Positions 49,540 through 64,000 of a stretch of 64,000 nt of DNA are shown here, one piece after another. The notes under the pieces were generated by a model. It was not told the origin of the DNA. It worked only from the letters and a program-made list of their open reading frames with translations, and did no database searches. Location of the stretch: the NCBI RefSeq assembly GCF_000734895.2, contig NZ_CP011382.1, forward strand, positions 434,001 to 498,000. The letters run 5' to 3'. Origin of the DNA: Calothrix sp. 336/3 (GTDB lineage: Bacteria > Cyanobacteriota > Cyanobacteriia > Cyanobacteriales > Nostocaceae). How positions within the stretch are numbered: position 1 is the first letter of the stretch; the number at the start of each line of letters is the position of its first letter. A program made the position numbers and the translations under genes.

Positions 49540-50025
49540 TTAGCTTAAGCCAGAGCAGATATAGTCTAAGTAAACACCCATTTCTTTACCAGCATCAGCA
49601 CCAACTAAGCTAGCGGTAACTTCTTTGATAGCTTGGATAGCTTGTACTGTTGCGCCAACGGGTACACCCAAGGAATTGTAGGTTTCTTTCAAACCGTTGA
49701 GTACACGCTCGTCAAGGATGGAGGGGTCGCCAGCTAACATAGCGTAGGTAGCATAACGCAGGTAGTAATCCAAGTCACGGATACAAGCTGCGTAACGACG
49801 GGTGGTGTACATGTTACCACCGGGACGGGTGATATCAGAGTACAACAAAGATTTAGCTACAGCTTCTTTAACGATCGCAGCTGCGTTAGCACTGATGGTG
49901 GTAGCTGCACGAACGCGCAATTCACCAGTAGCGAAATAGCCTTTGAGTTTTTCGAGAGCCGCGTTGTCCAAGTATTTACCTTGAACGTCCGAAGAATTAA
50001 TTACAGAGGTAATTGCGTCTTGCAT
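49540..50025 (-). CDS. apcB: Allophycocyanin beta subunit
   Basis: This 161-residue globin-fold phycobiliprotein begins [20 protein letters not shown]. Cys81 ([12 protein letters not shown]) is the phycocyanobilin attachment site, and Asn71 (RPGGN) is the usual methylated asparagine. It pairs with ApcA to form the allophycocyanin trimers of the phycobilisome core that pass energy to the photosystems. It follows apcA by 61 bases and is surely co-transcribed. All diagnostic residues are present. Confidence 0.98.
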
Positions 50026-50086
50026 GTTGTTATTTCCTTATTTCCAGCAGTATTGCAATGCTTGGTGTTATAGCAGGTAAAACCTA

Positions 50087-50572
50087 CTAGGACATAGCAC
50101 CGACTAAGTAGTCGAAGTAAGAACCAGCTTCAGATGCATCTTCACCAGACAGCAAGGAAGCAGCAACGCCCTTCATAGCGGTTACACCACCAGCAACAGC
50201 ATCGATAGGAGTACCGAGAGACTTGTACATCTCACGTACGCCAACAACGCCGATTTCTTCGATGGGGGTAACATCACCGGAAACAATACCGTAGGTGATG
50301 AGACGGAGGTAGTAATCCAGGTCACGCAGACAGGTAGCTGTCATTTCTTGACCGTAAGCGTTACCGCCAGGAGAAACTACATCAGGACGCTTTTGGAACA
50401 GCTGGTCGCCAGCTTGTTTTACGATCCGCTCGCGGTTTTCGGTCAAAATTTGAGCGATACGTAGGCGCTTTTCACCGCCGGTAACAAAGCTCTTGATGCG
50501 ATCTAGTTCGCCGGGGCTTAGGTAGCGAGCTTCTGCATCAGCATTCACGATGGACTTCGTGACGATACTCAT
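50087..50572 (-). CDS. apcA: Allophycocyanin alpha subunit
   Basis: This 161-residue phycobiliprotein starts [20 protein letters not shown] and has the bilin-binding Cys81 in [14 protein letters not shown]. It is the major alpha subunit, not the red-shifted ApcD, judging from its close fit to the consensus and its location. Translation follows a good upstream GGAGGAATCC-type site. A 414-base leader separates it from apcE, so apcA-apcB-apcC may have its own strong promoter. Confidence 0.98.
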
Positions 50573-50986
50573 TAATGGATTCCTCCAGTACTAACGAAAC
50601 CAGGATTTAATTAAACTGGTGCGACTTGAAACATTTCACTGAGCTTACCACCTCTTAGGGTGACAGTAACAGCAATAACTGCGGTTTCTCTCACACCTCA
50701 GGATTTACTTGAGTATTCAGCAGTACCCAAGTCAGGAAACTCAGCAACCTTCCGGATTTATTTTCGGGCATTATGATGAGTATTTATGACAGATGTTAAT
50801 AGTTTGTAATATTTACTTTCATTTTTTGGGGAAGGGGCAGGTAAAAAATGGCAAAGACGCGGCGACTCGGAAAAATTTTTACTAATCTCTCCGCGTTACC
50901 GCGCCTAGTAATTTGTCAACAGTCCTTAGCCATTCTTTACAAATGACCAATGACCGTTGACTAGTGATGAATTGAGACGAGGAGAA
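50573..50986. other. Leader region of apcAB
   Basis: 414 bases between apcE and apcA. In other cyanobacteria strong promoters for apcAB lie here. I see AT-rich tracts but no conserved operator I can name, and no terminator after apcE. Confidence 0.5.
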
Positions 50987-54759
<3,773 letters not shown>

Positions 54760-59936: not shown

Positions 59937-60242
59937 ATGACCTCATACAACATCGAGTTAAAAGAAAACCTCTTAGAAATCAACTTTGGTGGACCTGCAT
60001 CCAACGATCGCATTGTCATCGATGCTGCTGCAAGACTGGAAGAAATGGCAAAAGCTGGGATTTTACGGGGAGGACAATTACTGAAAATCAATGGTCCCAC
60101 ATCCATACCTGTAGCATTTGTTTTAGCCCATCGTCTGTGTCATCTTTACGGGGCGATCGCCTGTTTTGACCCCAAATTAGGAAAATACGTGATTTGTGTC
60201 ACTCACAACCCTACGTATAACCTAGGGGATTTAATCGATTAA
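59937..60242 (+). CDS. csx3: Stand-alone Csx3 family protein, probable ring nuclease
   Basis: This 101-residue protein matches the Csx3 domain: GGQLLKINGPTSIPVAFVLA, then HRLCHLYGAIACFDPKLGKY and VICVTHNPTYNLGDLID. His65, His69, Asp78 and His90 align with the positions I recall as H57, H60/61, D69 and H80 of Archaeoglobus Csx3 (Crn3). That protein cuts cyclic tetra-adenylate and so switches off type III CRISPR signalling. AGGAG precedes ATG 59937. It is followed after 42 bases by a second Csx3 gene, then by cas10, so it begins the CRISPR operon visible here. Confidence 0.85.
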   Translation: MTSYNIELKENLLEINFGGPASNDRIVIDAAARLEEMAKAGILRGGQLLKINGPTSIPVAFVLAHRLCHLYGAIACFDPKLGKYVICVTHNPTYNLGDLID

Positions 60243-60284
60243 GTTGAGATTAGAACTAGGGTTCGCAAGCTACCAGGAAGTTGT

Positions 60285-61202
60285 ATGAGTACCTACCATA
60301 TAGATTTGGATGGTGATATTTTACAAGTTGGGTTTGGGGAAACAATAGCAACGGGTGACAAAATAGTTCAGGATGTTGTGGTGTTATTGGATGCAATGAT
60401 TGCATCTGGGGAAATACCAGGTGGTGAGTTAATCAAAATTAACGGACGTGCATCCGTATTAGTAAGTCAGGTTTTAGCGTATAAATTAGCGCAGATATAT
60501 GAGGCGATCGCCTTTTTTGACCCCAAGATAGGTGATAAGGGTTTAGATAGATATGTTGTCACCGTTAGTAATAACCCAAAATATCAAATCGGCGATATTT
60601 TAGATGTTAACCGGGAAGAAAATCCTAGTCATATAAAAGTAGTTATTTGCGGATTTGCCAACACAGGGAAAACCTGCTTTCGTGAAGGATTAAAACAAGC
60701 ATTAATACATATACCTAACGCACCCAAATCCTATGTTATTTCAGGATGTCCTGACGGGGATGGTTCCTGGTTTTCCGACACAGCAAAACGAGATTTTGAG
60801 CTAGCCAAAAAATTAAAAGCTGAATATAAAACCAAATTTACACCAGCATTTGCTCAGTTTAAAGCGCAAGAATTTAGAAACGTCAAAGAACCCATATTTA
60901 TTTTTGATGTCGGAGGACAAATATCCCCAGAAAATCGCATAATTATGGCAGAAGCAACCCATGCCGTAATTTTAGTAAAAGAAGATAAGGAAATATCAAT
61001 TTGGGAAAACTTTTGTAAATCTTTGAGTTTACAAGTTCTGGCGATCGTCTTTAGTGATTATCATGGTATAAAAGATTTCATCGAGTCAGAAACGCCGATT
61101 TTAAAGGGTAGAGTTCATCGTTTGCAGCGTGGCGTTGACGTTTGGGATAGGGAAATTATACAGGCTTTAGCGAAAATTTTGGTTAGCAAGGTGAGGGGAT
61201 AA
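60285..61202 (+). CDS. csx3: Csx3-ATPase fusion protein
   Basis: This 305-residue protein has an N-terminal Csx3 domain (about 1-108) that resembles the preceding protein (GGELIKINGRASVLVSQVLA, FFDPKIG, NPKYQIGDIL), then an AAA/P-loop domain with Walker A GFANTGKT (123-130) and Walker B-like IFIFDVGGQ (Asp208). Csx3-AAA fusions are known in cyanobacterial type III-B loci. At the four Csx3 active-site positions it has Tyr66, Gln70, Asp79 and Asn96, so only the Asp remains and cA4 cleavage by this half is doubtful. It may sense or bind the messenger and drive the ATPase. Cas10 starts 3 bases after its stop, within the same operon. Confidence 0.9.
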   Translation: MSTYHIDLDGDILQVGFGETIATGDKIVQDVVVLLDAMIASGEIPGGELIKINGRASVLVSQVLAYKLAQIYEAIAFFDPKIGDKGLDRYVVTVSNNPKYQIGDILDVNREENPSHIKVVICGFANTGKTCFREGLKQALIHIPNAPKSYVISGCPDGDGSWFSDTAKRDFELAKKLKAEYKTKFTPAFAQFKAQEFRNVKEPIFIFDVGGQISPENRIIMAEATHAVILVKEDKEISIWENFCKSLSLQVLAIVFSDYHGIKDFIESETPILKGRVHRLQRGVDVWDREIIQALAKILVSKVRG

Positions 61203-61205
61203 ATT

Positions 61206-63590
61206 ATGACAGAAAAAATGCATCCTATCTCTATTGGAATCGCTTGGTGTTTAGCTTGGGGTGAAACACGGAAAGCAGAGAACTGGGAATTATTACAGCA
61301 AACTCGACAAGCTTTAATTGAAGATAGAGAATTACCGCAGAATTTTAAGTCAATTATTGAAGAAGTTAAAAAATTAGATAATCTAGAATTTCCTCAAACA
61401 TTAGATAAATTAAAGAATCTTACAGAAACATGTTCTCAGCGATGGGAATCAAAAATAGGTTTAGTTTATGGTGGTGTAACAAAGGTTAAACAATATGTTT
61501 TTGAAGCTGCAACACTTCCAGATATTCGAGGTGCTTCATCTTTGCTGGATAGAATAAATTTAATAGATTTACCTACTTTCTTTGGTGTGATACCTAAACA
61601 TAATCCAGAATTAAATACTCAGAAGAACTATAATGCTCAATGTAGCAGTGTAAGAAAGTGGTTAAATGATAATTTTCCACAACATTCGGAAAATGAAAAA
61701 AAACTATCAGATGCTTTAATCGAAGAACTGATTATATATTCTACTGGTGGGAATATATTAGCATTTTGTCCAGCAGCTTTTGTAGATGACTTAGCTAATG
61801 CAATTGAGAAACGCTATACTCATGAAACATTAACAGCAAATTCTTGTGCAGTAGGGGACAGATTCAAATTACTAGAAATTCAATTTGGTTTATTAAGGGA
61901 TAATATCGAAGATACCTTTTGGCTAGATAAATATAAAAAAGATTATAAAAACCCTATAGTTGAAGGTTGCTTTGGGAAAGTAGAGAGCGATTCCCAAGTT
62001 ATAGAAAATAATTTCCGAGACCATAAAAGCTTTAACGAGCTAACTACCAAGCTAGCAATTGCATTTAATCAACGTCGTTCGGGAAATGAAACCCCAAATC
62101 GTCCTAGTCGTCGTTATCCACCGATGTTAGAAACCCATCCTTATTTAAGGAGAGATGAGGTTGAAAAACGTAGCGCGATCGCTCACATCACCCAAGTTAC
62201 CGGACAACCTTATTTATCTGAAGCTTCCCTAAGAAAAAGATGCATCGGCGATCGAGCAAAAAAGGGGGAATTACCATCATGGTATCGAGATTTATGTCAA
62301 AACACAAATTTAGATTGGCAACCAGGTATTATTGAAAGTTGGACGAATAAATTTGAACTATTTCTGAAACAAAATCCCGACAAACATCAAAAATATTGCA
62401 GAAACTATAACCTTGAAAACATAGAAACATCTCCATCTTTAACTCACCTCGGCAAAGTCAGTAATGGCTTTATTGCCTATATTTATGCTGATGGGAATAA
62501 CATGGGTGGATATATTCAAAAAATCCGTACTCCTCAGGAGTATCAAAACTTTAGCGCTGATGTTGAAAATGCAACTAAATATTCGGTTTTTCATGCTTTA
62601 GCCAATCATCTTCACCCCAGACAATTACAAGGAATCGACGAATCAACCTCCAGATTAAACAATGGAGATTTTATCCATCCCTTTGAAATTATCACCATAG
62701 GTGAAGATGATATTATCCTGATAGTTCCCGCAGACAAAGCATTAGAGATAGCGAAAGATATCGGCGAAAACTTTGAAAATATTCTCTTGGATAATCTGAA
62801 AATACAAGAACATGGAAAACAACTAGAAATCAAAGGTAATTATTTCGATGAGTATTATGACGGTAGAAAAGCTCATCGTTGTCATCAAAACAATAAAAGC
62901 CCAGAAAAATCTAATTGTAAACTGAGTATCTCTAGTGGAGTTTTGATTGCTGCATATAATACTCCTATTTATTACGCGGAAAATTTAACTAAACAGTTAA
63001 TGAAGTCAGCCAAAGATTATGCTAAAAAATTACACTTTAAGAATGATGATAAAAAGACTAATGAAGATAAATATTATGGTGGTACGGTAGATTTTTTCAC
63101 AATGAAATCAGTTACAATGGTTTCGTCTAGTATTAAAGATTTTCGTGATAATGCACTAACAAAAAATCAAGGTGCAGAAATAAAACTTTACGCAGCACCC
63201 TATACACTTCACGAACTAGATGGTTTAATAGCCTCAATCAAAGCTTTAATTGCAGCAGATTTTCCTAAATCTCAACTCTATCAAATTCGAGATTTCCTTG
63301 CAAAAGGACGACGCACTGCTATTTTAAATTACTGTTATTTCCGCTCCAGACTCAAACAAGGGCAAACTCAATTAAGAGAAGATTTTGAAAAAGCCTGGTG
63401 TGATGCGAAAACAAATGGAGGAAATATCGCACCTTGGATGTACGAAAATAGATTCCCAGAAGAAAAACACAATAAATATTACGAAACTATTTGGCGGGAA
63501 ATGGTTGATTTGTATGAATTCCTTAAGGAAGATGAGGAGAATAATGAATCGGAACAAACAGCAACAAATATATCCAATACATCTAAATAA
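61206..63590 (+). CDS. cas10: Cas10 (Cmr2-type) subunit of a type III CRISPR effector
   Basis: This 794-residue protein shows KQYVFEAATLPDIRGASSLL at about 98-117, a Cas10 N-terminal feature. The palm polymerase domain has YADGNNMGGYIQ (Asp429) and IGEDDIIL (Gly499-Asp502), where GEDD replaces the usual GGDD. A possible zinc-binding region (AHRCHQNNKSPEKSNCKL) follows, then the C-terminal helical part. No HD-nuclease motif is visible in the first 200 residues, so target DNA cutting is not expected, but cyclic-oligoadenylate synthesis by the palm is. The RAMP gene follows after 8 bases. The Cmr2 subtype is my inference from the neighbours and the layout. Confidence 0.93.
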   Translation: MTEKMHPISIGIAWCLAWGETRKAENWELLQQTRQALIEDRELPQNFKSIIEEVKKLDNLEFPQTLDKLKNLTETCSQRWESKIGLVYGGVTKVKQYVFEAATLPDIRGASSLLDRINLIDLPTFFGVIPKHNPELNTQKNYNAQCSSVRKWLNDNFPQHSENEKKLSDALIEELIIYSTGGNILAFCPAAFVDDLANAIEKRYTHETLTANSCAVGDRFKLLEIQFGLLRDNIEDTFWLDKYKKDYKNPIVEGCFGKVESDSQVIENNFRDHKSFNELTTKLAIAFNQRRSGNETPNRPSRRYPPMLETHPYLRRDEVEKRSAIAHITQVTGQPYLSEASLRKRCIGDRAKKGELPSWYRDLCQNTNLDWQPGIIESWTNKFELFLKQNPDKHQKYCRNYNLENIETSPSLTHLGKVSNGFIAYIYADGNNMGGYIQKIRTPQEYQNFSADVENATKYSVFHALANHLHPRQLQGIDESTSRLNNGDFIHPFEIITIGEDDIILIVPADKALEIAKDIGENFENILLDNLKIQEHGKQLEIKGNYFDEYYDGRKAHRCHQNNKSPEKSNCKLSISSGVLIAAYNTPIYYAENLTKQLMKSAKDYAKKLHFKNDDKKTNEDKYYGGTVDFFTMKSVTMVSSSIKDFRDNALTKNQGAEIKLYAAPYTLHELDGLIASIKALIAADFPKSQLYQIRDFLAKGRRTAILNYCYFRSRLKQGQTQLREDFEKAWCDAKTNGGNIAPWMYENRFPEEKHNKYYETIWREMVDLYEFLKEDEENNESEQTATNISNTSK

Positions 63591-63598
63591 ACTATGCC

Positions 63599-64000
63599 AT
63601 GATACAACTTCAACAATTAATCAATACTAATTTTGTTGAGACTAATAGAATTACAGCAATTATTGATTCTGCATTATGTGTAGGTGCTGGTGGTTCCTCT
63701 GGTTCCCTTGCAGATAAACCAATAGTTCGTAACTCCGAAGGTAATTTATTAATTCCTGCATCCCAGCTAAAAGGTAGATTGCGTCACGAATGCGAGAAGA
63801 TAGCACGGGGTTTAGGATGGTCAATTTGTGAGTCTCCTAATGCGGGAAGAATGGTAATTAGGAGAAACGATGCACCGGAAGATTTTCAACGCGAGGAGTA
63901 TGAAATACCCGGTTATAATGACACCTATCACTGCTTAATTAGTCAAATTTTCGGCGACCCAATTTTACCATCAAGGATAATATTTGATGATTTAATCTGC
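63599..64000 (+). CDS. RAMP-family CRISPR protein, 3' end outside window
   Basis: The frame from ATG 63599 is open for 134 codons to the window edge. It starts MIQLQQLINTNFVETNRITA and has ASQLKGRLRHECEKIARGLG, a RAMP-type glycine/basic helix, then QIFGDPILPSRIIFDDLIC. RAMP (Cas7/Cas5-like) subunits form the backbone of type III effectors that hold crRNA. It is separated from cas10 by 8 bases. Which Cmr or Csm subunit it is cannot be told from the N-terminus alone; a Cas7-like subunit is most likely. Confidence 0.8.
   Translation, partial: MIQLQQLINTNFVETNRITAIIDSALCVGAGGSSGSLADKPIVRNSEGNLLIPASQLKGRLRHECEKIARGLGWSICESPNAGRMVIRRNDAPEDFQREEYEIPGYNDTYHCLISQIFGDPILPSRIIFDDLIC

Follow-up and report, generated by a model that had tools for sequence, protein, structure and literature searches.

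The window, a stretch of 64 000 nucleotides (C1:434001-498000) from a genome of 6.42 Mb in four contigs, carries at its downstream end two adjacent genes encoding Csx3-family proteins, followed by genes of a type III CRISPR system:

59937..60242, + strand: stand-alone Csx3 (Crn3 family), 101 amino acids, identified by Pfam Cas_csx3 and PADLOC Csx3
60285..61202, + strand: Csx3-NTPase fusion, 305 amino acids, PADLOC 'Csx3-AAA' PDLC01045, E 2.7e-106
61206..63590, + strand: Cas10 of the type III system, beginning 3 nt past the fusion, NCBIfam Cas10/Cmr2, E 1.8e-34
63599..64000, + strand: first Cas7-type RAMP gene, continuing beyond the window end

The stand-alone Csx3 gene is separated from the fusion gene downstream of it by 42 nt. 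Beyond the window end (locus L035) follow genes encoding Csx10, Csm2, a CARF7-RelE protein, further Cas7-type proteins, Csx19 and Csx21. The earlier note had connected Csx3-AAA fusions with III-B loci, a label that we have replaced for this locus: the locus is of type III-D, based on the Csx10-type Cas5 (PADLOC Cas5_IIId, E 1.5e-120), the Csm2-type Cas11 (8.8e-48) and Csx19 (4.2e-42) alongside Cas10, and a Cmr model was the best match for none of the nine downstream genes, Cmr3 and Cmr4 appearing as weaker secondary matches only. It is Cas10 taken alone that looks like III-B, matching the Cmr2 model with 119.5 bits (cut-off 79.4) and Cas10b better than Cas10d. The palm motif of this Cas10 is GEDD, compared with GGDD in all 44 further loci for which a Cas10-like frame was identified, which may indicate weaker cOA synthesis in this strain or a harmless variant. 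The CARF7-RelE protein (L035:10157-11341, about 2.2 kb beyond the window end; PADLOC E 1.1e-124) has APE2256-family proteins as its PDB relatives, and similar proteins were present in 46 of the 196 fetched loci (phmmer, E 1e-10). It is likely the main cOA-activated effector of the locus, which makes the Csx3 module more likely a regulator than the sole effector.

The stand-alone Csx3 matched Pfam Cas_csx3 with an E value of 3.6e-7 and 30.4 bits, above the cut-off of 21, and NCBIfam TIGR02579 with 26 bits, under the cut-off of 55.4. Using a profile of nine Csx3 sequences, the family was aligned to the ring nuclease AF1864 (PDB 3WZI; E = 8e-21) free of gaps over positions 44 to 80, and positions given below without a residue of our proteins are those of AF1864. 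The AF1864-anchored alignment identified four catalytic-type residues in the stand-alone protein:

60129..60131, + strand: codon of H65, equivalent of AF1864 H57
60141..60143, + strand: codon of H69, equivalent of AF1864 H60 (essential in AF1864)
60168..60170, + strand: codon of D78, equivalent of AF1864 D69 (essential in AF1864)
60204..60206, + strand: codon of H90, equivalent of AF1864 H80

In these residues, and in its Csx3 domain as judged by profile, the stand-alone protein resembles Crn3/Csx3 AF1864 (PDB 3WZI, 6YUD, 6VJG). It differs in having Lys (K80) in place of R71, Pro at position 46 and one extra residue separating the first two histidines (the H57 and H60 equivalents), a spacing referred to here as the 'long' type of Csx3. 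H57 and R71 are reported as absolutely conserved in Csx3 in passages of the AF1864 study (PMC7371418). Thus, among the residues expected of a ring nuclease, H57, H60, H80 and D69 all have equivalents and R71 is replaced by Lys, as it is in 49 of the 50 long-type partner Csx3 proteins surveyed below. Judged by its residues, the stand-alone protein looks catalytic and seems able to destroy cA4. A phage origin of this gene was rejected after a tblastn search (E 0.01) of 50,697 phage records gave no match; for the fusion family, one viral-contig scan with a single peptide pattern returned no relative, a weak negative given the single pattern.

The fusion combines a Csx3 half with an NTPase half, the motifs of the latter being taken from aligned NTPase domains:

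60285..60605, + strand: Csx3 half of the fusion (residues 1-107), with Y66, Q70 and N96 replacing the H60 face and N53-G54-R55, D79 and K81 forming the D69 face
60651..60674, + strand: Walker A / P-loop GFANTGKT (residues 123-130)
60906..60917, + strand: Walker B-like DVGG (residues 208-211)

Aligned over 107 columns, stand-alone Csx3 and Csx3 half are 43% identical (E = 2e-29 as a single comparison), and the gaps in their pairwise alignment fall outside the catalytic sites. At the equivalent sites the fusion has Y66 (H57), Q70 (H60), D79 (D69), K81 (R71) and N96 (H80), so that it lacks all three histidines found in AF1864 and expected of a ring nuclease. The contrast between H65/H69/D78/H90 in the stand-alone protein and Y66/Q70/D79/N96 in the fusion, first drawn in the earlier note, was confirmed by both the pairwise and the AF1864-anchored alignment, in which H69 and Q70, each nine residues ahead of the Asp, correspond to H60. 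Beyond what the earlier note recorded, Lys occupies position 71 in both proteins, and position 46 is Arg in the fusion and Pro in the stand-alone Csx3. An alignment artefact was ruled out, the sites being unambiguous in the pairwise alignment and all 30 members of the fusion's clade agreeing.

Residues 1-300 of the fusion matched PDLC01045 over nearly its full length (model positions 1-285 of 286). In the aligned NTPase domains, G123, G128 and K129 were present in 175 of 175 sequences and D208 in 174, regardless of which residues the Csx3 half had kept. The label 'AAA' for this part rests on the PADLOC name and the P-loop, since no AAA family matched the fusion (P0002) above its curated cut-off and seven relatives of the fusion gave sub-threshold matches to AAA families only (best AAA_16, E 0.0012, 19.8 bits, cut-off 32.6). 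A solved relative for the NTPase part was also rejected, PDB profile matches beyond Csx3 being short and confined to the surroundings of the P-loop among the best 60 of 75 matches. Structure models were of low confidence (AlphaFold pLDDT 36.5 for the fusion, 63 for the Csx3 half). Structure searches on this low-confidence basis gave a best Foldseek E of 0.028, none reaching 0.001, and a best VIA-align Z of 6.2; neither program had a Csx3 chain in its 50 listed rows.

The consequences of losing these histidines can be gauged from AF1864. According to passages of the published study (PMC7371418), cA4 cleavage is abolished in the H60A and D69A mutants and strongly reduced in H80A and R71A, and mixing the H60A and D69A proteins restores activity because a site forms only where one dimer contributes its D69 face and a second dimer its H60 face, the two clamping a single cA4. 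Most of the contacts with cA4 described there lie on the D69 face (I22, S44, G45, R46, I49 and R71); on the H60 face, H80 is the single contact mentioned. The H60A protein still binds cA4 in crystals, and it turns milky with cA4, which its authors read as fibres bridged by cA4. The histidines of the stand-alone protein map to H57, H60 and H80, and mutants at H60 and H80 are impaired (PMC7371418, same passages), which upholds the earlier view of them as catalytic residues. Residue mapping and the two-face mechanism together make the fusion, on paper, a natural Csx3 with a dead H60 face. The window pair thereby resembles the engineered H60A + D69A pair in having one partner without the H60 face and another with it; it differs in being natural, in being encoded by two genes of which one is fused to an NTPase, and in that the stand-alone Csx3 retains its own D69.

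Csx3-AAA proteins (PDLC01045) were sought in 386 cyanobacterial, 217 same-family and 388 same-order genomes (overlapping sets). The survey figures apply among the matches listed, part of which were fetched, with 6-10 candidates scored per genome in most. The resulting 196 loci comprised 188 fetched stretches, five plasmid loci and three Calothrix loci (L032-L034), the latter being the three relatives from one scan of named genomes, with 74-83% identity to the fusion. They contained 179 NTPase-bearing frames, of which 151 had one Csx3 half, 21 had two and seven had none. For 74 of the 151 one-Csx3 fusions, another Csx3 frame of the same strand lay no more than 600 nt away (paired); the other 77 were scored as unpaired, meaning that the fetched stretch held no such frame, with further copies elsewhere in the genome possible and some calls affected by stretches that end at a contig end. 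After two overlapping, broken frames of L192 and one duplicate (L157) had been dropped, 148 fusions were counted. All three histidines were kept in 58 of the 77 unpaired and 5 of the 71 paired fusions, and the difference was found in both the long type (26/32 unpaired vs 4/50 paired) and the short type (32/45 vs 1/21). The earlier note had named as grounds for abandoning its reading that most Csx3-AAA fusions keep the histidines; this proved true of unpaired fusions and false of paired ones. The remaining 19 unpaired fusions lacked at least one histidine, seven of them all three, and the five paired keepers comprised four of the long type and one of the short type.

Stand-alone Csx3 proteins kept all three histidines in 69 of 73 cases beside a fusion, in all six that adjoin an NTPase gene lacking a Csx3 half, and in 20 of 22 elsewhere. 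Both the L192 fragment and the duplicate are counted among the 73 partners, and the four non-keepers were L178 (HYH), L173, which aligns oddly, the truncated L042 and the L192 fragment; the two non-keepers among the 22 were both truncated, L083 being half of a fusion and L101 a frame. The order was stand-alone gene followed by fusion in 70 of 72 pairs, with 60 nt or less between the open frames in 58. A recent local duplication as the source of the window pair was rejected, 49 of the 50 long-type partners belonging to a clade of stand-alone proteins, separate from the Csx3 halves of fusions, in a FastTree-only tree of this short domain; the exception was the partner in L200, which groups with its own fusion. 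As a separate observation, the six loci L078, L082 and L217-L220 hold an NTPase gene without a Csx3 half adjoining an intact stand-alone Csx3, an arrangement that is a split version of the same module.

The window fusion belongs to a clade of 30 fusions. All 30 lack all three histidines, yet N44, G45, R46, D69 and K71 are invariant (30/30) and positions 22 and 49 are conserved in 29 of 30. Given 35 invariant columns among 105, invariance at five of five D69-face sites has a probability of 0.003, whereas positions 57, 60 and 80 rank 85th, 68th and 91st in conservation among the 105 columns. In the 30 stand-alone partners of these fusions, the same three columns are invariant His. For comparison, 26 unpaired long-type fusions were used that had been picked for having H60, so that their H60 column is uninformative. 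The retained D69 face in the window's clade fits binding of cA4 without cutting, as far as the residues tell. Replacements of the histidines recur in this clade as D at position 57 (21/30), K at 60 (24/30) and R, K or N at 80 (30/30). Such charged or amide residues raise the improbable alternative that the fusion recognises a new ligand through its changed face (Y/D, Q/K, N/K/R), be it a different cyclic oligonucleotide, the end of an RNA or a protein, with the two copies reading different signals; the replacements are shared by descent within one clade, however, and the D69 face that contacts cA4 is unchanged.

The same conservation bears on the idea that the neighbouring Csx3 simply made the histidines of the fusion dispensable, leaving the Csx3 half as a docking or dimerisation platform that is finally lost. 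The five invariant D69-face sites of the window's clade argue against such decay, as do G45, P46, D69 and K71 in 16 of 16 members of a second long paired clade (position 44 in 15 of 16). Loss of histidines was moreover not linked to a non-adjacent Csx3 elsewhere in the genome, the short-type fusions L066, L068, L069, L070 and L072 having such a copy and still all three histidines. Redundancy finds its evidence in the short-type paired clade (19 fusions with the partner upstream), in which D69 is kept in 10 of 19 and Arg at position 71 in 9 of 19, making decay or a docking role likelier there, and in the six loci with a separate NTPase gene beside an intact Csx3. The erosion of both faces in that clade makes decay a serious competitor; as an account of the window pair we consider it unlikely.

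The relation between histidine loss and an adjacent partner, with a row-level Fisher P of 2e-18, is striking by rows; this P value carries no weight in our conclusions because the sequences compared are relatives of one another. In trees built from the NTPase half (FastTree and IQ-TREE quick, one short NTPase remnant, L081, left out), the pairing state changes seven times, and five supported independent pairs gave a non-significant sign test, some pairs being opposite. Under irreversible-loss counting, H60 was lost 13 times in paired vs 5 times in unpaired lineages at branch lengths of 14.1 vs 13.3 (P = 0.10), H57 7 vs 7 times and H80 13 vs 9 times. The second long paired clade shows repeated partial losses, with different histidines gone in different members. 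The association rests on a few deep events together with these partial losses; counted as evolutionary events the link is weak and not significant.

Two Csx3 domains also occur together in the 21 frames that encode single-chain Csx3-Csx3-NTPase proteins, 16 of the long and five of the short type. K129 and D208 of the NTPase are present in all 21. In 12 of the 16 long-type proteins H80 is missing from the first domain, which keeps H57 and H60, and H57 is missing from the second, which keeps H60 and H80:

Twelve reciprocal-loss (HH- / -HH) proteins: L073, L075, L188, L189, L191, L193-L199

Of the other four long-type doubles, two have lost a single histidine, H80 of the first domain, one has likewise lost only H57 of the first domain, and one lacks all six histidines; the five short-type doubles have lost all histidines or all but one. 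The short-type doubles of L175-L177 and L212 have lost nearly all mapped catalytic residues in both Csx3 domains, D69 included. Second domains of 13 of the 16 long-type proteins form one clade (support 98), so that the reciprocal pattern may have a single origin, with varying replacements (T, N, D, E; S, N, L, Y, Q). The simplest reading of the reciprocal-loss chains is an intramolecular pair that would form one composite site. Single-chain doubles such as L105 (Pseudanabaena galeata plasmid) resemble the window pair in having two Csx3 domains and one NTPase per unit, and are architectural support for two Csx3 domains cooperating beside one NTPase. They differ in forming one chain and, in the 12 long-type proteins (L105 not among them), in having lost a different single histidine in each domain; the tree gave no sign of their domains being orthologous to the two window genes.

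Based on these observations, we tentatively favour, with somewhat less than even confidence, a reading in which the adjacent genes encode one module with divided labour, the fusion gripping cA4 and gating its NTPase and the stand-alone protein supplying the cutting face. For this module we infer cA4 binding, cleavage, subunit contact and NTPase coupling alike. The fusion would capture cA4 on its D69 face and, unable to cut it, switch its NTPase domains; the stand-alone Csx3 would dock by its H60 face on the same cA4 complete the active site in trans, cut cA4 and so release the NTPase. cA4 would act as both ligand and bridge, the subunit ratio would set how long the NTPase is engaged, and the assembly could be either homodimer on homodimer or a mixed dimer. 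Loss of the histidines in fusions with an adjacent histidine-bearing partner and the reciprocal losses in the double-Csx3 proteins are counted in favour of such a module, as are the mapping on AF1864 with its H60A + D69A rescue, the invariant D69 face of the window's clade, the conserved Walker A Lys and the gene order. Against it stand the weak link when events are counted, the D69 retained by the stand-alone protein, which could therefore act alone, the Lys at position 71 in both subunits, the erosion of D69-face residues among short-type paired fusions, the histidine loss in unpaired fusions, including those of Synechocystis type, and the five paired keepers. A bolder and more doubtful form of the same idea is a heteromeric ring nuclease with cA4 as glue, in which one cA4 molecule would first bring the complex together and switch the NTPase, to be cut afterwards by the assembled complex; the reciprocal-loss single-chain relatives would, if this holds, be fused versions of a heteromeric built-in timer.

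The earlier note had instead proposed a sensor with a separate off-switch. Its observations of lost histidines, kept Asp, intact Walker motifs and a catalytic-looking partner were borne out and its labels III-B and AAA were not; the stand-alone Csx3 appears likelier as the other half of one enzyme than as a separate off-switch because the known site consists of two half-sites on different dimers. In its strict form, with the fusion alone a non-destroying cA4 sensor coupled to NTP hydrolysis and the stand-alone protein a separate homotetramer that only lowers cA4, we regard this as rather unlikely. Invariance of the D69 face and conservation of the NTPase motifs despite the lost histidines agree with it, as do the binding of cA4 by crystalline H60A protein in the account of PMC7371418 and the Synechocystis-type fusions L061, L064, L103, L181 and L227, all five of which have lost two or three histidines and have no adjacent Csx3 gene. 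By itself, however, it leaves unexplained both the histidine loss beside an adjacent partner and the reciprocal losses in single-chain proteins, and it would give the sensor a lone D69 face without the opposite clamp.

Fusions of this kind are known as Csx3-AAA or Csx3' proteins (PDLC01045), for example slr7080 of Synechocystis. The window fusion has their domain order and the near full-length match to PDLC01045. It differs in having lost the H60 face while retaining the D69 face and in adjoining a catalytic-looking Csx3; the Synechocystis copy on pSYSA_M (L103, presumably slr7080) has also lost all three histidines and has no adjacent Csx3. Deletion of slr7080 is stated in a passage of PMC9676260, citing others, to leave defence against an invader plasmid unaffected, and SyCsm6 is named there as another ring nuclease reported in Synechocystis. 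What seems to be new is the division of the histidines between adjacent Csx3 copies: no account of histidine loss in Csx3-AAA proteins was found in the portions of open-licence PMC papers that were available, and Makarova 2020 and Brown 2020 may discuss it. Going by residues, a split between gripping and cutting is seen as a pattern in many cyanobacteria, and it allows a prediction, for each of their Csx3-NTPase proteins, of whether cA4 is cut. Passages of PMC12409355 and PMC9676260 describe the NTPase domain attached to Crn3 as having an unknown or uncharacterised role, and a natural separation of gripping from cutting would offer a direct handle on it, with two small proteins from one locus, one of them missing a defined half of the known site. 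It would show how one assembly can let an NTPase read a type III CRISPR alarm and also erase that alarm.

In all five plasmid loci (L103-L107) the Csx3 gene or genes are immediately preceded by a divergent CRISPR-associated gene of the TIGR03985 family, in four of them along with an HD-domain gene; TIGR03985 matched neither of the two genes upstream in the window. The plasmids L104 and L106, which carry the two-gene Csx3 pair, were typed as conjugative. Elsewhere in the window, and unrelated to the Csx3 genes, two frames of 161 amino acids and one of 1138 amino acids (49540-54403, - strand) look like what we take to be allophycocyanin subunits and a phycobilisome core linker, respectively.
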